From Bartonella bacilliformis KC583 (GTDB lineage: Bacteria; Pseudomonadota; Alphaproteobacteria; Rhizobiales; Rhizobiaceae), in NCBI RefSeq assembly GCF_000015445.1, contig NC_008783.1, positions 875,001 to 939,000 on the forward strand: a stretch of 64,000 bases of DNA. Reading direction: 5' to 3'. The position numbers and the translations under genes were made by a program. The notes below the pieces were generated by a model. The model ran no database searches. It worked only from the letters and a program-made list of their open reading frames with translations, and was not told the origin of the DNA. Positions 38,970 to 48,168 of the stretch are shown here, piece after piece. How positions within the stretch are numbered: position 1 is the first letter of the stretch; each line of letters starts with the position of its first letter.

Positions 38970-40907
38970 ATGAAATCGAAGCTGTTGTTGTTCTTGTCTA
39001 GCCTCTTATTGTCTCTTCATACTTCTTTTGCCGCACCTATTCCTGCTCAAGTCCTGCAAACCCCTACGGACCATCCTCATGACAAAGCTATTCATGTTAA
39101 AGTCCATACAGGATATGAATATTGCTATGCCCCTATCTTTACAAAAGGAGAGGGCTACATCTATCTCAGTGATTGTTCTTCCTCTAACGTTAAATTCGCT
39201 CGCTATGATCTCTTTGAAAGAGTCGCCTGGAATATCAACGACACCTGGTTGTGCATGACTGCTCCTAGCTCTGTTACAGGCATTGACGGAAGCTCCACCG
39301 CTAACTGGGATTATCTGCTCTTACGGCCTTGTGTGATCAATGATCAAAATCAACGCTGGATCATTAAAGACAGAAGCTTCTACACAGCCGATGGAAGATT
39401 TCGTGTTAAAGATTATAGATGGTATGCCTATATTTCAAAAAACGAGAAAGATTATTATGACCATCATTTAACTTTTGAAATGAACCACTGGACACAAACG
39501 ATTTCTCCTCCTGGGAATCTCAGTTCTAAGACCTTTGTCGCCTGGCTATATGTCAATACATATCCTCCTGTATTTGCCCTCTATTATCTGCAAAATGACT
39601 CCTCCTCCCTCTCTACAACGCCACTGCCTCTTTACTACAATCCAGAAAATGGCCATATCGCTCAATATTACACTGCCTCTGGGGATTTCTATTGTATGGT
39701 TTCTCAACAATCTGCTGAAGATGATTGGAATTGGGTAAAATGGCAACCTTGTACGGATAAAGTTCCTTCAAGTAAGGATGCCTCTTTTTGGGATATTTCT
39801 CAGTTAGATGAGACTGAAGGTCTTATTTTGGATTCTCAAGGTAATCCGCTAAGAGTAACGCAATATGGTATTTATTGGGGGGTCCCTTACACAGCAAAGC
39901 CCAGTTATATTAAACAAGACACCAGCAACTCGCCAACCTCTAATTTTCTGTTTTCTGCTGATATTGAAAAATGGAACCGTTATGTGAATGGGAATTTAGG
40001 AGAAACACTTTCTTATTGCCCTGCTCCTGGAAATAAGAAAAATATTCTGCAAGCTTCTCAGACACGAAAAAAACGACAGTTACCTCCTGAATTTACTCTC
40101 TCCGATGAATGGACAAAAAGACTATGGGAAATCTCTAGAAGTAATACTAAAGAAGGTGAAGAAATAATTGGCTATTGTGGAATTTGCATAATGCATGCTT
40201 TACAAATACTTGCTGAGTTAGAAGAATATTCTCAAAGAACGCCTCTTCAAGATGGAGAAGGATATTTCTTTGATACAGCTCATAATATAAATCCATTTAT
40301 TTCACTTCGTCAGAGATTTCCTAGAATTGTAGAGAGACTCGAAGTTACAGAAGAATTTTTTACAATTCCTTATGGGCCAGAAGAAAATATGCCCATACAA
40401 TCAAATAGAATATCTCGGGTAATAGCATCAACATTCTTATCTCGACATCTTTGGAGATCTTTAGCCATTGCAAGAACAGCAGAAGAGATGAGAAGTGCAA
40501 CTCAAACGCTGTTGAATACTCCCCTTGGAACGCTTGGATTTATAACAACTATTGAACAGAGTTCTGAAGGAGAAATTAGTTCTCATGTCCAACCTATTGT
40601 AAGAACAAGAGATGGGTTATTCTTAATCCCTACAAACACACCGGATTTCAGTCTTGAAATGTATAGGAGGAACATTATCAATGTAACAAGCCCAGAGATA
40701 TTAATTTATCATCTTTCAGATTTTGGCACTCGAACACTACTTTCATTCTCAGTTACTCAAATGGTTTCGTTATCTCTACCTCCATATGATCTTTATCTCT
40801 CTCAAAACAATTGTACTGGAGAAGGAGAGCATAGAAGAGGCAATAGAGAACTTCCAAGAGTTTCTATTATCAATCAGTGTTTAAGTGGTAGATGTGCCAT
40901 TCAATAA
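38970..40907 (+). CDS. Secreted DUF1561/virulence-modifying (VM) toxin, copy 2
   Basis: A 645-residue paralogue of the gene at 23839. Signal peptide to about residue 22 (TSFAAP), lectin half with GYEYCYAP, WLCMTAPSSVTGIDG, NQRWIIKD and DDWNWVKWQPC, then RKKR at residues 366-369 followed by QLPPEFTL, a textbook furin-type R-x-K-R linker. The C-half shows CGIC (403-406), H539 in SHVQP and N556 in LIPTN, with the same 17-residue His-to-Asn distance as the other copies. The tail CTGEGEHRRGNRELPR is conserved. DNA is strikingly like copy 3 in the lectin half (around 39580-39680 versus 41870-41970), so the pair arose by tandem duplication. Host-cell target unknown. Confidence 0.86.
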   Translation: MKSKLLLFLSSLLLSLHTSFAAPIPAQVLQTPTDHPHDKAIHVKVHTGYEYCYAPIFTKGEGYIYLSDCSSSNVKFARYDLFERVAWNINDTWLCMTAPSSVTGIDGSSTANWDYLLLRPCVINDQNQRWIIKDRSFYTADGRFRVKDYRWYAYISKNEKDYYDHHLTFEMNHWTQTISPPGNLSSKTFVAWLYVNTYPPVFALYYLQNDSSSLSTTPLPLYYNPENGHIAQYYTASGDFYCMVSQQSAEDDWNWVKWQPCTDKVPSSKDASFWDISQLDETEGLILDSQGNPLRVTQYGIYWGVPYTAKPSYIKQDTSNSPTSNFLFSADIEKWNRYVNGNLGETLSYCPAPGNKKNILQASQTRKKRQLPPEFTLSDEWTKRLWEISRSNTKEGEEIIGYCGICIMHALQILAELEEYSQRTPLQDGEGYFFDTAHNINPFISLRQRFPRIVERLEVTEEFFTIPYGPEENMPIQSNRISRVIASTFLSRHLWRSLAIARTAEEMRSATQTLLNTPLGTLGFITTIEQSSEGEISSHVQPIVRTRDGLFLIPTNTPDFSLEMYRRNIINVTSPEILIYHLSDFGTRTLLSFSVTQMVSLSLPPYDLYLSQNNCTGEGEHRRGNRELPRVSIINQCLSGRCAIQ

Positions 40908-41271: not shown

Positions 41272-43221
41272 ATGAAATTGAAACTGTTTTTCTTCTTCCT
41301 TAGCTTACTATTGACCATTCAGACTTCTTCTGCAGCTCCTGTTCCTGGAGTGATTCAAAAACCTCCTGATCGTCCTCATGATAAAGCTATTAAAATTAGA
41401 GTCCATACAGGAGGCGAATACTGTTATACTCCCACCTTTACAGAAGGAATGGGCTATATTTACATCAATGATTGTTCTTCCTCTACCGTCAAAGCGCGAT
41501 ATGACCTATTTCAAAGAGTTGCCTGGAATATCAATGATACCTGGTTATGCATGACAGCCCCTGAATCCATTACAGGGAGTGATAGCAACTCCTCTGCTAA
41601 TTGGGATTATCTTACTTTGAAGCCTTGTGTGATCAATGATCAAAATCAACGCTGGATCATTAAAGACGGAGGTTTCTATACAGCCGATGAGAGATTCCGC
41701 GTTAAAGATACTCATTGGTATGCATATATTTCAAAAGATTCAAAAGCTTCTTATGACCATCAATTAACCTTTGAAATGAAGGACTGGAGCTCAACGGTTT
41801 CTCCTCCTGGTAATATCAGTTTTAAAACATACGTAGCATGGTTATATGTTAGTGTATACCCTCCTTTATTTGCCCTCTATTATCTGCAAAATGACTCTTC
41901 CTCCATCTCTACAACGCCGCTGCCTCTTTATTACAATCCAGAAAATGGTCATATCGCTCAATATTACGATTCATATGGGTCTTTCTATTGTATGGCTTCC
42001 AAACAAACTACTTCACAAGATTGGAATTGGGTACAATGGACAGAGTGTACAGATAAAATTCCTTCAAAGAAGGATTCAACCTTCTGGGATGTTTCTCAGT
42101 TAAATGGAAATGAAGGTTTTATTCTGGATTATCAAGGCAATCCGTTAAGGGTTACTCAATATGGTACCCGTTGGGGTGTCCCTTATACAGCAAAAACGAG
42201 TTATATACCAAAAGACACAACAAACTCTCCAACATCTAAGTTTATTCTTTCTACTGATATTGAACAATGGAATCGTTACACGAATGGGAATTTAGGGGAA
42301 ACACTTCCTTTTTGCCCTGCTCCTGGAAAAAAAGGGAGTATTTTGCAAACTTCTCAAGCGCGAAAGGGGCTATTTTTACCTCCTTGGTTTACCCTCTCTG
42401 AGGCATGGATACAAAGACTATGGCAAATCGCTAGAAGCACCGTAGATGGAACGGAACGAATTGGCTTTTGCGGTATCTGCATGTTGCAAACTTCGCAAAT
42501 GCTTGCTGAATTGCAAGAAAATTATCAAACTCCTACCTATCAGGATGGAGCAGGTTATTTCTTTAATACGGCTTTTGGTAGGGATCCATTTGTTTCATTG
42601 CGTTCTAGATTCCCTCATATTGCAGAAAGGCTGCAAATGACAGAAGTATATTCTGAAACGCCTTTTACTCCAACAGAGGATAGACATGAACGAGCGAACA
42701 GAGCATGTAATGTAATGATATCAACATTTTTACCCGACGTTATGTGGAGATCTTCAGCAGTTGGAAGAGCAAGCGCAGAAATAGCAAGAACACTTATAGG
42801 CCTATTTCGCATTCCTCCTGGAACGATTGGGTTTGTTGAAGTTGTTAGAGAGAATACAGAGCGTACAGGCTACGTTGCTCATGCACAGCCTTTTATAAGA
42901 ACACAGGAAGGGATCATATTAATTCCTACCAATGCACCTCAATTGAGTCTTGACGAATTCCGTCAATCTCTGACCCCAATACCAACAACACAACAAGGTT
43001 TAGAAAGATTAGTTTTATATCTTTCAGTGAGAGGCTCTCAACCAATTCGTTCAGTCTCAACTTTTGAAATGGTTCAGTTAACCTTACCCTCTTTGAATGT
43101 TTATATGTCTCAAAGAGATTGTACTGGAGAAGGTGATCATAGAAGAGGTAGCAGGCAACTTCCAAGCACTTCATCCATTAATGAATGTGCTAGCGGTGGC
43201 GGCAGGTGTTCCCCACGATAA
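41272..43221 (+). CDS. Secreted DUF1561/virulence-modifying (VM) toxin, copy 3
   Basis: A 649-residue paralogue. Signal peptide to about residue 22 (TSSAAP), lectin half with GGEYCYTP, WLCMTAPESITGSDS, NQRWIIKD and QDWNWVQWTEC, C-half starting LPPWFTL. Here the linker reads QARKGLFLPP, so the furin-like site of copies 1 and 2 is absent. The C-half keeps CGIC (400-403), H537 in AHAQP and N554. The tail has CTGEGDHRRGSRQLP and an extra glycine-rich end (SGGGRCSPR) unlike the GRCAIQ end of the other two. The lost linker site and different tail may reflect a change in processing. A strong bidirectional terminator follows. Confidence 0.86.
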   Translation: MKLKLFFFFLSLLLTIQTSSAAPVPGVIQKPPDRPHDKAIKIRVHTGGEYCYTPTFTEGMGYIYINDCSSSTVKARYDLFQRVAWNINDTWLCMTAPESITGSDSNSSANWDYLTLKPCVINDQNQRWIIKDGGFYTADERFRVKDTHWYAYISKDSKASYDHQLTFEMKDWSSTVSPPGNISFKTYVAWLYVSVYPPLFALYYLQNDSSSISTTPLPLYYNPENGHIAQYYDSYGSFYCMASKQTTSQDWNWVQWTECTDKIPSKKDSTFWDVSQLNGNEGFILDYQGNPLRVTQYGTRWGVPYTAKTSYIPKDTTNSPTSKFILSTDIEQWNRYTNGNLGETLPFCPAPGKKGSILQTSQARKGLFLPPWFTLSEAWIQRLWQIARSTVDGTERIGFCGICMLQTSQMLAELQENYQTPTYQDGAGYFFNTAFGRDPFVSLRSRFPHIAERLQMTEVYSETPFTPTEDRHERANRACNVMISTFLPDVMWRSSAVGRASAEIARTLIGLFRIPPGTIGFVEVVRENTERTGYVAHAQPFIRTQEGIILIPTNAPQLSLDEFRQSLTPIPTTQQGLERLVLYLSVRGSQPIRSVSTFEMVQLTLPSLNVYMSQRDCTGEGDHRRGSRQLPSTSSINECASGGGRCSPR

Positions 43222-43391: not shown

Positions 43392-44630
43392 CTAACAAAC
43401 ACGTTCATAGGTGTTAAGTTCACGTTTTAAATATCCATTATCAACTAAACAGCGTCTCAATCTCGCATAATCATCACTAAAGAGAGAACAAATTTTGGAA
43501 ATTTCGAACTCGCTATAAGTTCTATTTAAATCAAACGCATTCACAATTTTGCTTAATATCTCTTGTGTCTCAAGCTGCTGGTCATTTAATTCTTTATTAT
43601 CCCTTTTTCTGCTTTGTAAAGTTATATTCCAAGAATCTGTAACCACTTGCCATTTTTTTTCATTATATTCAATCAAGCCAATAGAGTGTAAACGAGCAAC
43701 AGCTTTGTTAACCTTTTTGATGTCTAATTCTGTCACAGTACAAATTTCTGAAATACTCTTTTCTCCTAAAATTATTGCGGCATAAATTAATCGCAACTCT
43801 GCATTAGCCATTACCCCATGAAAAGCAGAAATTTTAAGATCATTTTGTAATTTTTCTTTTCCTATAGGAAATTGACTAGAACGAATTGGTATTTCATCCA
43901 TCTCTAATAATTCTTCCTGCAGTGATTGTTGACGAAAAACTAATTCAGATGGTAGCCTTTTGCGAATAATACCTAAACCACTTTGGCGATATTTATGTAA
44001 TTCAGGTATCGTTATTACCTCATAACTATAATCAAGCCTACTTATAATCTCTTCCCATAGAGGTGTACGAACGCGTCTTAATAATTCTTTACTATCTGAA
44101 GAAATTTGCGCTAAAATTATTGGTTCATGTAAAATTAAATACCCCCCTTCAGCAATATGAGGCCAAAGAGTTGCTACAAACCGAACATCATCAGCAAGTG
44201 AGCCTGCATCAATCCAAGCAAAGTCAATTTTTCCCCAAGATGTGATTATTTTATCATCAATGTCAAAAAAATTTCTTTGAACCATAGTAATAAATTCGAG
44301 ATTTGTTTTATCTGCTTGTATAGTATCCCATATCTCCTGCGCAGATTGGCCAAGCGCTGTAAAATCATCTATGGTTATGAGATGGGGGTTATAATCTGCT
44401 GGTACATGTGAAGGATCAAGTACTTCTGTACGTTCTTGCCATATATTTTTTTCAATTATTTCTTTGTCATTAATCCATTCTTCTTTCGCTTTTTTAAGAG
44501 CTTCAAGAATAAAAATTGTGCTATCGCCTGCACCAATTTCAATAACAAGGTTTGGGCGCACCATTTTTAGTAAGGCACTAATAAGCTCAGAACTATTTTC
44601 TGTTCCCATTCCTGGTCTAATAAGGTTCAT
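43392..44630 (-). CDS. Methyltransferase-HTH-DUF2087 fusion protein
   Basis: A 412-residue protein of three parts. Residues about 10-220 form a class I SAM-dependent methyltransferase-like fold: motif I LVIEIGAGDSTIFILEAL near 29-46, then FAWIDAGSLADDVRFVATLWPHIAEGGYLILHEP near 136-169. Residues about 265-330 look like a winged helix-turn-helix (AELRLIYAAIILGEKSISEICTVTELDIKKVNKAVARLHSIGLIEY). Residues about 350-405 match DUF2087 (FDLNRTYSEFEISKICSLFSDDYARLRRCLVDNGYL), a domain found with regulators. It might methylate a peptide or act as a regulator. It lies 18 bases after the gene at 44649-45335, in one minus-strand operon. Confidence 0.75.
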   Translation of the reverse strand: MNLIRPGMGTENSSELISALLKMVRPNLVIEIGAGDSTIFILEALKKAKEEWINDKEIIEKNIWQERTEVLDPSHVPADYNPHLITIDDFTALGQSAQEIWDTIQADKTNLEFITMVQRNFFDIDDKIITSWGKIDFAWIDAGSLADDVRFVATLWPHIAEGGYLILHEPIILAQISSDSKELLRRVRTPLWEEIISRLDYSYEVITIPELHKYRQSGLGIIRKRLPSELVFRQQSLQEELLEMDEIPIRSSQFPIGKEKLQNDLKISAFHGVMANAELRLIYAAIILGEKSISEICTVTELDIKKVNKAVARLHSIGLIEYNEKKWQVVTDSWNITLQSRKRDNKELNDQQLETQEILSKIVNAFDLNRTYSEFEISKICSLFSDDYARLRRCLVDNGYLKRELNTYERVC

Positions 44631-44648: not shown

Positions 44649-45335
44649 TCAAAATAAACGCAATATACCAGCTTCAATAAAAGTGCATAGAGTATTTTTC
44701 ATGGTGTCAGAGAGGTTCGTTATGGGCCACTCCATAGTATGAGGCTTTGATAATTTATTTAAAAAATTTTTTGCTTGCGCATCTACCAAAAATACCCGAC
44801 CATTTAATGGATTTATTACTTTGTAACCAGCCTTAAACGTTACAATTATACATGTTGGTTCCCGTATAATACCGCTTGGTATATTTTCTAAAAACAGTTG
44901 ATTAGTTTCGAGGATACCATGGCGTAATAACGTTACATATATTTCACTTGAACTATAACGCTTCCCATTTAATAGGATAGGGAACATTTCTTTTATTTTT
45001 CGTCCATACTTTAAATTATCATAGGTCTTAACATCAATATTTATAAAAACTTTCGATCGTTCAGATAAAATTGAAATTTCTTCAATAGATGGAATTCCAA
45101 AAATAGCTAACATATTTTTAACAATGCACACGTTTTTAGAAAAATAAATATCTGCCTCTGGATTAAGTCTCTCTGGATAGGGATAATATGCGTTTTTAAG
45201 AATAGGTAATTTAGACCTCTTGAGTTCAATTTGAGAGTATTTTTCGTGTATATTATGCTGATAATACTCTATTAATTGCCAGGCATAGGCACCTGTAAAT
45301 TTGTAGAAATTTATATGAAATGGATCTTTTTCCAT
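44649..45335 (-). CDS. Cluster protein with PqqD-like C-terminal region
   Basis: A 228-residue protein I cannot assign by full length. The last 65 residues (YKVINPLNGRVFLVDAQAKNFLNKLS, ending FIEAGILRLF) follow the pattern of PqqD-type small winged-helix domains, which bind leader peptides in many RiPP pathways as the recognition element. The first 160 residues are mixed alpha/beta without a known motif (PILKNAYYPYPERLNPEADIYFS). A strong ribosome site (GAGGGGG) precedes the ATG. First gene of the minus-strand operon, divergent from the 53-codon gene. The leader-binding role is inference. Confidence 0.55.
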   Translation of the reverse strand: MEKDPFHINFYKFTGAYAWQLIEYYQHNIHEKYSQIELKRSKLPILKNAYYPYPERLNPEADIYFSKNVCIVKNMLAIFGIPSIEEISILSERSKVFINIDVKTYDNLKYGRKIKEMFPILLNGKRYSSSEIYVTLLRHGILETNQLFLENIPSGIIREPTCIIVTFKAGYKVINPLNGRVFLVDAQAKNFLNKLSKPHTMEWPITNLSDTMKNTLCTFIEAGILRLF

Positions 45336-45370: not shown

Positions 45371-45399
45371 TTGACTTTACAATTTAAAATTGCAATGAT
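45371..45399 (+). promoter_or_regulatory. Candidate promoter of the 53-codon gene, with palindromic spacer
   Basis: TTGACT at 45371-45376 and AATGAT at 45394-45399, 17 bases apart, fit a sigma-70 type promoter, 35 bases before the ATG. A perfect 13-base palindrome (CAATTTAAAATTG at 45380-45392) lies in the spacer, a good place for a repressor to bind. The HTH protein of the divergent operon is one candidate. Confidence 0.45.
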
Positions 45400-45433
45400 T
45401 GTTGTTTATCACAAAATTTAGGGAGATAATTCA

Positions 45434-45595
45434 ATGAATATTTTATTAGATAAAGTAGAAGAATTCGAAGAAATTACTAAGGCTACATTGCTTAGAAAAG
45501 AAAATGAATTTTGTTTTTTTATTTCAGAGATATTGCCTGTAATTAGACATGTAAAATATGCACAAGTTCATATCGATGAAGATATGATTGTTTAA
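45434..45595 (+). CDS. 53-residue putative RiPP precursor peptide
   Basis: A short gene with a strong ribosome site (GGGAGA, seven bases before ATG). Product: 53 residues, N-terminal half acidic and helical (MNILLDKVEEFEEITKAT), middle with one cysteine (EFCFFISEIL), C-terminal part HVKYAQVHIDEDMIV rich in Asp, His and Tyr. A charged helical leader followed by a distinct tail is the usual shape of a ribosomal precursor peptide. It sits first in a plus-strand group with an oxygenase and an exporter, divergent from a PqqD-like protein and a methyltransferase. No close family recognised; it could also be a small regulator or a toxin-antitoxin-like peptide. Confidence 0.6.
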   Translation: MNILLDKVEEFEEITKATLLRKENEFCFFISEILPVIRHVKYAQVHIDEDMIV

Positions 45596-45778
45596 TAGCT
45601 CTTTTGTAATTTAAAGATGCGTATAGAAAGACTAATTTAGAGAACTAAAATTTTATAACGTTAGCCTTTTCAGGCTGTATCACGCCAATATCTTTATATA
45701 ATTGGTTATTTTATAAAAAACTAATAAATGAACGATACTTATAAAATATTACATTAGATTTATGGGGGAAATATAAAA

Positions 45779-46966
45779 ATGATACCCTTATTTTCTCAGC
45801 AATTTGCACGAGAAATTTGGAGTAAAAAAGCGATTGAGCTATCAACGGATTTTATCCCTTTTTCTGACAATCAACTCTTGAGCGCATTACACGCATACAC
45901 ACATTCGTACGATAAAATACGATTTTTAAATAATATTGCATCCGTTAATATCTCTATTAATGGTGAAAAACCACAAAAGCCTTCAAAAGATTTTTTGGTT
46001 TTGGACACCGACCATACACTCGATGATTATATTTCTCGGATTGACAAAATAATTGGTAATGATGACTGGTCACTAATGTATTTTGGCCTTTCTGCAGCTG
46101 ATCCCCGCATGTGGGATGCAGCTAAAATATTTTCTGATAAGCTTGCAACTTCTATAGGAAAGCGCCCAGGTGGGCGAGTTGATGTCGACTGTTTTATTGG
46201 GCGATATTCTTGTACCCATGCCGGGATACACACAGATTATGCTCATAATTTTGCATATACACTGCGTAATGGAAAAACTATGTACACTTGGCCAAAGGAT
46301 AGACTTGACCTTGTTGGGCTTAAATATCCGCATTATGAAAAGTATAAATGCGAAAGTATAGCCTTAAAAAACAATACAGGATGTGTTGCCTACTTTCCTC
46401 ATGATTTTATGCATGTTGCCGAAACAAAAGAAAATATTTCTGTCAATGTGAATCTTGCTTTTTGGGAATATTCCAGTGCTGCTAAAGATCACGCAGATCA
46501 CCTAAGAAAAATGATTTCTATCCCCCAAAGGACACATTATAACATCATTCATTCTGGGCTAGTTAATCTCAATCCAGATGACCAATTACAACTTTCAACA
46601 TTAGATGCCATTTTAAAAAACGGCCACTTAAAAAAGTATATGGCATCTCAGAGCTTAATCATGGACACAAGCTCTCGGATCGGAATTGCTCGCCCTCCTA
46701 TAGAAGTAGTCAATATTAGAAATAATATCCATTTGGAACACAATACAACACTCCAATGGATTATTCTATTAGAATCAGAAGAAATTCTTATTTCCGCTAA
46801 TGGCCACTGCATATGTGTTCCTTACCGTATATCTTTTTTAAAAATCATGCATCAACTCGTTAATAGAGAAACTGTAAATTTAACTGAATTCTCTAATCAC
46901 GAAAAAGAATATCAAGAAATTCTACGCTTTATTAAGAGTTTAGCGTGTTGGAAAGCCATATGCTAA
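45779..46966 (+). CDS. JmjC/cupin-like Fe(II)/2-oxoglutarate oxygenase
   Basis: A 395-residue protein with a JmjC-like core. GIHTDYAHNFAYTLRNGKTMYTWP (residues 149-172) holds H151-x-D153, with K166 in the place that binds 2-oxoglutarate, and AYFPHDFMHVAE gives H212, completing the HxD...H iron site. This is the layout of cupin-fold hydroxylases that act on protein or peptide side chains. Residues about 320-395 (EEILISANGHCICVPYRIS, then FLKIMHQLVN) may form a small winged helix like that of bacterial ribosomal oxygenases. A strong ribosome site (GGGGGAA) precedes the ATG. Its neighbours suggest it hydroxylates the 53-residue peptide. That is inference. Confidence 0.8.
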   Translation: MIPLFSQQFAREIWSKKAIELSTDFIPFSDNQLLSALHAYTHSYDKIRFLNNIASVNISINGEKPQKPSKDFLVLDTDHTLDDYISRIDKIIGNDDWSLMYFGLSAADPRMWDAAKIFSDKLATSIGKRPGGRVDVDCFIGRYSCTHAGIHTDYAHNFAYTLRNGKTMYTWPKDRLDLVGLKYPHYEKYKCESIALKNNTGCVAYFPHDFMHVAETKENISVNVNLAFWEYSSAAKDHADHLRKMISIPQRTHYNIIHSGLVNLNPDDQLQLSTLDAILKNGHLKKYMASQSLIMDTSSRIGIARPPIEVVNIRNNIHLEHNTTLQWIILLESEEILISANGHCICVPYRISFLKIMHQLVNRETVNLTEFSNHEKEYQEILRFIKSLACWKAIC

Positions 46967-48168
46967 ACAAATATAAGCCCGTTATTTTACAATTTTGTAT
47001 CTGTCTCATGCTAACTTTTGCCAGCTTAGCTGATGAAACAGCACAGATAACTTTCGCCTTAACACTTGCAGAGAATACCCATTTTATCTCTATGCTTTTG
47101 TCGACAGGATTGTTATGCGGTATTCTTGCTAATTTTTCTGCACCTTTACTGTTACATCAGTTTGGTGCCTACCGACTTATCATTAATATTTTTTATATTG
47201 AATCTCTCTTAATTGTAATAGCTGCTTTCATGGGATCCTTTTGGGCTTATATTTGTCTAGCAGCAGGCTTAGGGTCAGTTCTGGCATTACTTTGGTCGGC
47301 AGTTATGGTGGCTATACCAGATTTTGCTCAAAATGAACATCAACTTGATTGGATAAATCGTGTAGTACAAACTATGCGTAACTTTGGTTACATTGGTGGT
47401 CCAATTTTAGGGAGTTTATTTTTTACCTATTTACAGCATAGTTATGGTTTAATTTACCTTGCTATACTGGTTCTATGTGCTGGATTTATTGTATTGTTAT
47501 GTTTTAATTTACTGAAGATAAATAATATCAAACAAACTAAAAATGAGCATCTCCCTCATAGTACGAAAAAATATCTAGACTTTATCGGTCTATTTAAGAA
47601 AAAAACTGTTTTTTGGGTTTTACTGCCTTTAGTCATTACGATAGCTTTTAGCTCAGCTGAAAATGTTATGTTAATTATCTATATCCGTAAAATTTTACAA
47701 TTTGATGCAACATCTTATGGATGGATCTTAAGTAGTACAAGTATTGGGCTAGTTGTTGGACCGCTATTATTTACTGGTTTTTTTAAAATTTTAGGAGAAG
47801 CCCCTGGAGCTTGTTTGGCTGCAGCGGGTATTGGTACAGGAATATTCTGCTTATCCTTAACTTCCAATATATGGGTTATCATCATATCTTCTCTCTTAAT
47901 TGGAATATCCAATGGCGTACAAAATACCCTTATGGCCACTTTTATGATGAATAATATTAAAAAAGATGAGCGCAAACAACAAATGCCTGCCTATATCTTT
48001 ATAGTACAAAGCTCAGTATTAGCTGGTTTCTTCAGTGCTGGCTTTATTGCTTTGGACTATATACAAATAAGTTTAACAATAATTGGTATAATGACGATAC
48101 TTGCTGGCTGTACGGGGATTATTGCTAATCTTTATCAACAAAAATTTAAACCCAAAAGCAATCTATAA
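46960..48168 (+). CDS. MFS transporter of the RiPP-like cluster
   Basis: A 402-residue inner-membrane protein with about twelve hydrophobic segments and no soluble domain, of the MFS type (closest in look to the MFS_1/MFS_3 exporter groups; TMRNFGYIGGPILGSLFF and a second-half GWILSSTSIGLVVGPLLF). The ATG at 46960 overlaps the oxygenase end by seven bases and has GGAAAG upstream; an in-frame GTG at 46945 is the other option. Coupling to the oxygenase gene argues that it exports the pathway product or confers immunity. The substrate is not known from sequence. Confidence 0.82.
   Translation: MLNKYKPVILQFCICLMLTFASLADETAQITFALTLAENTHFISMLLSTGLLCGILANFSAPLLLHQFGAYRLIINIFYIESLLIVIAAFMGSFWAYICLAAGLGSVLALLWSAVMVAIPDFAQNEHQLDWINRVVQTMRNFGYIGGPILGSLFFTYLQHSYGLIYLAILVLCAGFIVLLCFNLLKINNIKQTKNEHLPHSTKKYLDFIGLFKKKTVFWVLLPLVITIAFSSAENVMLIIYIRKILQFDATSYGWILSSTSIGLVVGPLLFTGFFKILGEAPGACLAAAGIGTGIFCLSLTSNIWVIIISSLLIGISNGVQNTLMATFMMNNIKKDERKQQMPAYIFIVQSSVLAGFFSAGFIALDYIQISLTIIGIMTILAGCTGIIANLYQQKFKPKSNL

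Follow-up and report, generated by a model that had tools for sequence, protein, structure and literature searches.

Does a small open reading frame (ORF) of 53 codons in Bartonella bacilliformis KC583 encode the precursor of a modified peptide, and is the oxygenase encoded downstream the enzyme that acts on it? Both genes lie in a stretch of 64,000 nucleotides of this genome, referred to here as the window, and all coordinates are counted from its first letter. An original prediction, made from the DNA letters, had read the two genes, a transporter gene and two divergent genes as a compact locus for a ribosomally synthesized and post-translationally modified peptide (RiPP). Our comparison of related loci argues that the peptide is very probably the precursor of a modified peptide on which the linked oxygenase acts, the genes forming a RiPP biosynthetic operon. 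The features concerned are:

45420..45425, + strand: Shine-Dalgarno-like agggag, read directly, 8 nucleotides 5' of the ATG
45434..45595, + strand: putative precursor peptide gene, 53 residues, ATG start, leader MNILLDKVEEFEEI... (alignment A2 of 12 loci; 50 protein clusters; purifying selection in relatives)
45536..45565, + strand: conserved core P35-VIRHV-KYAQ44 (Pro at -6 and KYAQ conserved in the family)
45779..46966, + strand: ribosomal-oxygenase-like, presumably Fe(II)/2-oxoglutarate-dependent oxygenase, 395 residues (29-sequence alignment; AlphaFold2 model; PDB matches)
46229-46231, 46235-46237 and 46412-46414, + strand: codons of H151, D153 and H212, the HxD...H site of the oxygenase (29-sequence alignment)
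46751..46948, + strand: C-terminal part of the oxygenase gene (DSSP of the model; order of a RiPP recognition element (RRE) as given in the available part of PMC12710340)

The peptide family and its oxygenase

The small gene had been described as well initiated, and its ATG and the agggag upstream agree with this. To place the peptide in a family, a profile made from alignment A2 was searched against 5.8 billion proteins. The search returned 50 protein clusters at E ≤ 1, 49 of which scored ≤ 4e-7 (the weakest, P0082, had E 0.82); 6 of the 50 are identical to a query row. Where the owners are named, they are Bartonella (many), Burkholderia, Paraburkholderia, Pandoraea, Ralstonia and Cupriavidus, and the proteins are annotated as "hypothetical". 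The motif KYAQ is present in 49/50 clusters (P0080 lacks it), as one copy in 25, two in 19 and three in 5. Among the 78 copies in the 50 proteins, a proline stands six residues before the lysine in all 76 that have enough flank.

In the genomes of four other Bartonella species with a full-length oxygenase, an ORF of 49-50 codons with an MNISL start and KYAQ lies just 5' of the oxygenase gene. In Burkholderiaceae the same place is taken by ORFs of 60-77 residues, that of locus L029 among them, in which a unit resembling VEPVVANVKYAQRND occurs two or three times. Tandem cores (..EPVVANVKYAQRND..) are carried by the Burkholderiaceae peptides, two or three in each, and Bartonella peptides mostly have one. 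Core number differs between L029 (2) and L037 (3), though their oxygenases are nearly identical. The leader reads M-x-I-S-L...E-L in most relatives. The window peptide matches the family pattern at P35 and K41-Q44; its tail is its own, and a 14-residue stretch before its core is absent from the 11 other peptides aligned in A2. The gene is short and has leader-like and core-like parts, as in RiPP operons. Two further peptides may be mentioned. P0057, from Bartonella sp. MM73XJBT, is a two-core precursor, and core number varies within Bartonella too. The weak match P0082 (133 residues, on a contig of 2,884 bases) has two SNVKYAQ copies and is perhaps a more distant precursor.

The ratio of non-synonymous to synonymous substitution rates (dN/dS) was calculated for sets drawn from 22 copies of the peptide gene, leaving aside the window and L019, L012, L016, L063, L064 and L065. 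It is below 1 in 36/36 pairs of nine Bartonella genes (median 0.46) and in 15/15 pairs of six Burkholderiaceae genes (median 0.19). Between two B. bacilliformis strains the peptide gene shows two synonymous changes and one non-synonymous change (98% identity); the gaps next to it are less alike (89% and 94%). On these sequence comparisons, the 53-codon gene is a member of a conserved family of putative precursors.

The residues H151, D153 and H212 of the oxygenase, predicted as an intact HxD...H site, are found at these positions and are invariant in all 29 aligned oxygenases, the window's included. An AlphaFold2 model (predicted local distance difference test score, pLDDT, 91.5) has the JmjC barrel, the HxD...H site and the C-terminal winged helix of the ribosomal oxygenase (ROX) fold. 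Its best PDB matches are the ribosomal oxygenases NO66, YcfD and MINA53, with a sequence identity of 11-15%, and the PDB entries matched are JmjC proteins acting on proteins or peptides, as hydroxylases or demethylases. The C-terminal domain of the model runs bbb-aaa, the strand-helix order of an RRE (DSSP). The Pfam models gave little: PF08007 does not match the window oxygenase and matches 1/29 family members (E 0.17), no Pfam JmjC match was found for the window protein, and Cupin_8 matches 7/29 members (best E 9e-4). The earlier label "JmjC" is thus borne out by the fold of the model and finds no Pfam match in the window protein. As judged from the model, the protein resembles the ribosomal oxygenases and would have the fold of protein hydroxylases.

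The oxygenase is patchily distributed. A pattern search of genome contigs, with patterns taken from one sequence, returned a single relative, the 98% identical protein of B. bacilliformis Ver097. Among the 61 genomes around the window's, the oxygenase matches 9, all of them among the 37 Bartonella and some in pieces. It was found in 6/249 genomes of a Burkholderiaceae-type family (the match in L034 is a distant one), in 4/65 Burkholderia genomes and in 1/32 of a Pandoraea-type genus. A phylum-wide scan matched 2/398 genomes, the window's own and one with a weak partial match. Plasmids gave no match, and the 14 stretches with the pattern in viral contigs include no relative. A family taken for Enterobacteriaceae by its WzyE matches, aimed at Photorhabdus and searched with no positive control, gave 0/392. 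In the Bartonella set, with broken copies counted, the peptide profile matches 18/61 genomes at E ≤ 0.1. Two distant relatives of the oxygenase, L034:7821-8921 (23% identity) and the weak partial match L022 (G367), could belong to neighbouring families with other precursors.

We then scored 36 loci for both genes; all had been picked by the peptide, the oxygenase or the divergent 228-residue protein of the window, which we call PQD, and the distant L034 was excluded. An intact KYAQ peptide accompanies the oxygenase in 17 of the 19 loci where the latter is full-length, and is present in 2 of the 17 loci where it is broken or missing (two-sided Fisher test 5e-6, to be taken as a guide only, the loci being kin and the window and L019 one species). 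A tailoring-type enzyme is linked to the putative precursor across species, as in RiPP operons, and the conservation and co-occurrence that the original prediction had counted on are confirmed. The distance from peptide to oxygenase gene is 63-187 nucleotides in the 17 loci with both intact. The two genes also decay together: in L064, L065 and L066, most of the oxygenase is deleted and the peptide is decaying, with its start lost, with stops, or with Lys changed to Gln.

Operon order and likely horizontal spread

The remaining features of the locus are:

46945..48168, + strand: major facilitator superfamily (MFS) transporter gene, its start overlapping the oxygenase stop (PF07690, E 1.8e-29; third gene of the operon in relatives)
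44649..45335, - strand: PQD, 228-residue operon protein (full-length relatives in Bartonella and Burkholderiaceae operons)
43392..44630, - strand: MT2087, a fusion of methyltransferase (residues 30-168), probable winged helix-turn-helix (wHTH; residues ~268-326) and DUF2087 (residues 354-410) (PF13578, PF09860; same architecture in L030)
45371..45399, + strand: promoter-like TTGACT-17-AATGAT 5' of the peptide gene (consensus scan only)

The exporter start at 46945 and the oxygenase end at 46966 overlap as predicted, and the divergent pair begins 98 bases from the small ORF, close to the 100 bases claimed. The promoter-like site is no better than chance: the consensus scan gave 5 such sites in the region, and shuffled sequences gave 4.1 ± 1.9.

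L013 (Bartonella) and L030 supplied the tblastn queries by which gene order was mapped. Five Burkholderiaceae loci (L029, L030, L031, L037 and L038) have the order peptide, oxygenase, MFS, class-I methyltransferase (PF13649), PQD, MT2087; the contig of L033 ends within the methyltransferase gene, and L032 has all operon genes except the peptide. Bartonella loci keep this order, with the class-I methyltransferase mostly lost: among the loci fetched it is full-length in L061 only, and it is absent from the B. bacilliformis locus. Short N-terminal remnants of it lie between MFS and PQD in L013, L014, L060, L066, L073 and L077. The inversion of the PQD and MT2087 genes is found in B. bacilliformis only (the window and L019). 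The proposed tie of the peptide to the oxygenase, the transporter and the divergent genes is therefore matched by the same set of genes, co-linear, in other Bartonella and in Burkholderiaceae. Horizontal spread of the operon appears likely on sequence grounds, because its G+C content differs from that of its flanks (53-56% against 57-68% in four Burkholderiaceae loci) and because the oxygenase tree has three clades, B. bacilliformis, other Bartonella and beta-proteobacteria, with the order among them unresolved. An ORF that looks by eye like a phage-type integrase (L012:4058-5194, - strand) lies by a truncated operon end and hints at island mobility. In another Bartonella operon the MFS gene stands in tandem duplicate (L015:9176-11682).

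The 228-residue protein had been called PqqD-like, and this label is not supported by Pfam, NCBIfam, PDB sequences or hhalign profile-profile comparison. PF05402 (PqqD) has 0 matches in the window's genome, compared with 13/14 control genomes at the same loose E-value. The comparison of PQD with the C-terminal domain of the oxygenase by hhalign showed no kinship, and an AlphaFold2 model of PQD built from 2 sequences (pLDDT 38.7) was too poor to use. A protein search with PQD alone returned one B. bacilliformis copy and nothing else. In genomes, with broken copies counted, PQD is found in 25/62 of the Bartonella set, and it occurs in the same 4/65 Burkholderia genomes as the oxygenase.

For the fusion protein, the methyltransferase (PF13578, E 2.5e-9) and DUF2087 parts (PF09860, E 8.7e-13, 48.7 bits against a cut-off of 22.4) stand as predicted. 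Over residues 264-326, matches to helix-turn-helix models stay under the cut-offs (best E 4.1e-5), and the same holds for a TrmB/MarR match in the L030 fusion (E 3e-4). PHROGs matches of PQD (E 6e-4), the fusion (E 1.2e-6; both of unknown function) and MFS (E 1.1e-15) were uninformative.

Further upstream in the window lie two adjoining secreted-protein-like ORFs, 38970-40907 and 41272-43221 (+ strand). The latter is a full DUF1561 protein (PF07598, E 2.5e-202; its ricin-B-lectin match is weak). The former starts like this neighbour, and L019 likewise gives two matches.

The proposed pathway and its alternatives

We propose the following pathway. Its grounds are the conservation and linkage of the genes, their coupled decay and the predicted fold; the biochemical and regulatory steps themselves are inferred. 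The small gene would give a precursor with an N-terminal leader for enzyme recognition and one to three P-x5-K-Y-A-Q cores. The oxygenase would bind the leader through its own C-terminal winged-helix domain, as the model suggests, and would hydroxylate a KYAQ side chain, Lys in the first place, then Tyr or Gln. In Burkholderiaceae, the class-I methyltransferase would act next, perhaps joined by the methyltransferase part of MT2087. The wHTH-DUF2087 part of this fusion probably serves to raise or tune the transcription of the gene for the precursor, by analogy with BtmL in bottromycin biosynthesis. From the gene content, we infer that a protease from elsewhere in the genome would trim the cores and that the MFS protein would export the product.

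Given the pairing of precursor and oxygenase, hydroxylation on KYAQ is probable. Asp, His and Tyr of the tail had been offered as targets; Lys, Tyr or Gln of KYAQ are likelier, since Asp and His of the tail are not conserved. Two points favour Lys: BipG hydroxylates ornithine, and the part of the core that does not vary consists of Lys, Tyr, Ala and Gln with the Pro at -6. Lys as the hydroxylated residue is a guess, somewhat short of an even bet.

Several observations weigh against a precursor and its modifying enzyme. L032 has an intact oxygenase and no KYAQ ORF within its 19 kb, and in L063 the oxygenase is intact and the peptide frameshifted. Conversely, the peptide is intact beside a broken oxygenase in L016, where its tail is altered, and in L059, whose oxygenase has a stop and a Q replacing the metal ligand H151. 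Oxygenases were also found under the names Arthrobacter, Streptomyces and Photorhabdus, but the profile search returned no peptide carrying any of these names. Foldseek TM-scores of the oxygenase model to ribosomal oxygenases are 0.39-0.50 by query length, with root-mean-square deviations of 8-11. No protease is encoded among the operon genes (the flanking genes were not scanned). Finally, MFS, PQD and MT2087 show purifying selection in some Bartonella that have neither peptide nor oxygenase; part of the operon may therefore have another job, and the MFS protein may have a role of its own.

This last point bears on an alternative that is compatible with a RiPP and that we regard as possible, if rather unlikely: MFS, PQD and MT2087 would be a module for immunity against the product made by neighbours, or for sensing it, and peptide and oxygenase would be the producer half of a bacteriocin-like system. 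In nine Bartonella loci found by PQD (L072-L080), the peptide is missing and so is almost the whole oxygenase. Their junctions are of at least two kinds, one perhaps derived from the other, and a further deletion in L064-L066 removed the oxygenase only. The MFS gene is full-length in 8/9 of the nine loci. Four of these loci (L072, L075, L077 and L080) have one junction in common; among them the dN/dS of MFS is 0.30 for the closest pair (L075-L080) and 0.13-0.16 for the other five, compared with 0.155-0.234 in loci with a full-length oxygenase. This pattern would agree with a role of the remaining genes in immunity or sensing; recombination could also account for it. However, no more than 5/9 loci have a full-length PQD, and the same number a full-length MT2087 (all three genes in L072, L075 and L076), and over all loci without an intact oxygenase the MFS gene is full-length in 11/17. 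Moreover, L078 and L079 are near-identical, and the junctions are perhaps derived or spread by recombination, so that selection after the loss is not proven. The original prediction had named enzyme genes that occur widely without a peptide gene as evidence against it. This applies only in part: PQD does so in the nine loci, but there the oxygenase is gone too, and an intact oxygenase without an intact peptide is found in only 2/19 loci.

It is improbable that the peptide, instead of being exported as a product, serves the oxygenase as a small regulator or chaperone-like subunit while the oxygenase acts on another substrate. The shortness of the peptide, its nearness to the oxygenase and the lack of a protease gene in the operon would agree with such a role, whereas Burkholderiaceae peptides have two or three near-identical 17-residue repeats in tandem, whose number is not the same in the close relatives L029 and L037, and this is typical of multi-core precursors. 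Still less probable, to the point of being remote, is that PQD and the methyltransferase half of the fusion are the real tailoring enzymes and that the oxygenase makes a small-molecule co-substrate. PQD does accompany the oxygenase in 4/4 Burkholderia genomes that carry PQD, but the PDB matches of the oxygenase act on proteins or peptides and its model carries an RRE-like domain of its own. A chance ORF beside an ordinary oxygenase has nothing left in its favour and is ruled out by the A2 alignment, the 50-cluster family, the coupled decay, dN/dS, the KYAQ/Pro pattern and the strain comparison.

The reading of a RiPP precursor and its oxygenase can be extended into a speculative and, in our view, doubtful whole: a new RiPP class, spread horizontally between alpha- and beta-proteobacteria, in which the winged helix of a ROX relative serves as a built-in recognition element, KYAQ is hydroxylated, and MFS, PQD and MT2087 are immunity or sensing genes kept by non-producers. 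If true, one domain would serve two trades, as the RRE and as the winged helix of ribosomal oxygenases.

Comparison with known systems

P-x5-KYAQ in one to three copies 5' of a ROX-like oxygenase gives a searchable signature for peptides now annotated as hypothetical proteins, whose owners include host-bound Bartonella with small genomes. With this system one can test directly if a single peptide-binding device underlies both the RRE and the winged helix of ribosomal oxygenases; it may also add a new oxidation to RiPP chemistry. The Bartonella loci with and without the putative producer half would offer a natural experiment on producers and non-producers.

A search of the open literature, with subscription papers and preprints mostly outside its scope, found no description of the KYAQ precursor or gene set. 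Fungal dikaritin precursors such as that of ustiloxin have several short Tyr-containing tandem cores, as here; the host, the processing and the enzymes differ. Compared with the ribosomal oxygenases YcfD/ROXA, NO66 and MINA53, the window oxygenase differs in its peptide operon and its patchy distribution, and this gene neighbourhood favours the peptide over a ribosomal protein as its substrate.

As far as the available parts of the sources tell, the closest known systems include the biphenomycin clusters, in which BipG is a JmjC ornithine hydroxylase of a RiPP (PMC12707348). With BipG and PbsQ, JmjC/cupin-like ornithine hydroxylases, they share a small precursor, a JmjC-type hydroxylase acting on a basic core side chain, and an MFS gene (PMC12707348, PMC12257519). 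They differ in having an MNIO, a B12 radical SAM enzyme, an arginase or arginase-like step and an FRF-type core. The KYAQ gene set has none of these: no biphenomycin-type MNIO or B12 radical SAM Pfam domain was found among the six window proteins scanned, and the core is KYAQ, not of the FRF type. BtmL of the bottromycin RiPP cluster is a wHTH-DUF2087 protein that raises the precursor gene transcript, according to the portion of the report available (PMC7113386). MT2087 likewise carries DUF2087 behind a probable wHTH and is cluster-situated; it differs in that these parts are fused behind a methyltransferase. The 2025 RRE-Finder study describes, in its available part, JmjC proteins with bbb-aaa RRE-like domains and bacterial homologues in RiPP-like contexts (PMC12710340). 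A bbb-aaa domain on a JmjC-type protein is also predicted for the oxygenase of the KYAQ operon, and the KYAQ precursor and operon were not found in that part of the study. A RiPP with a JmjC-type hydroxylase is therefore a known kind; what looks new is the precursor, the gene set and the presence, in an operon of this sort, of a ROX-like architecture over its whole length.

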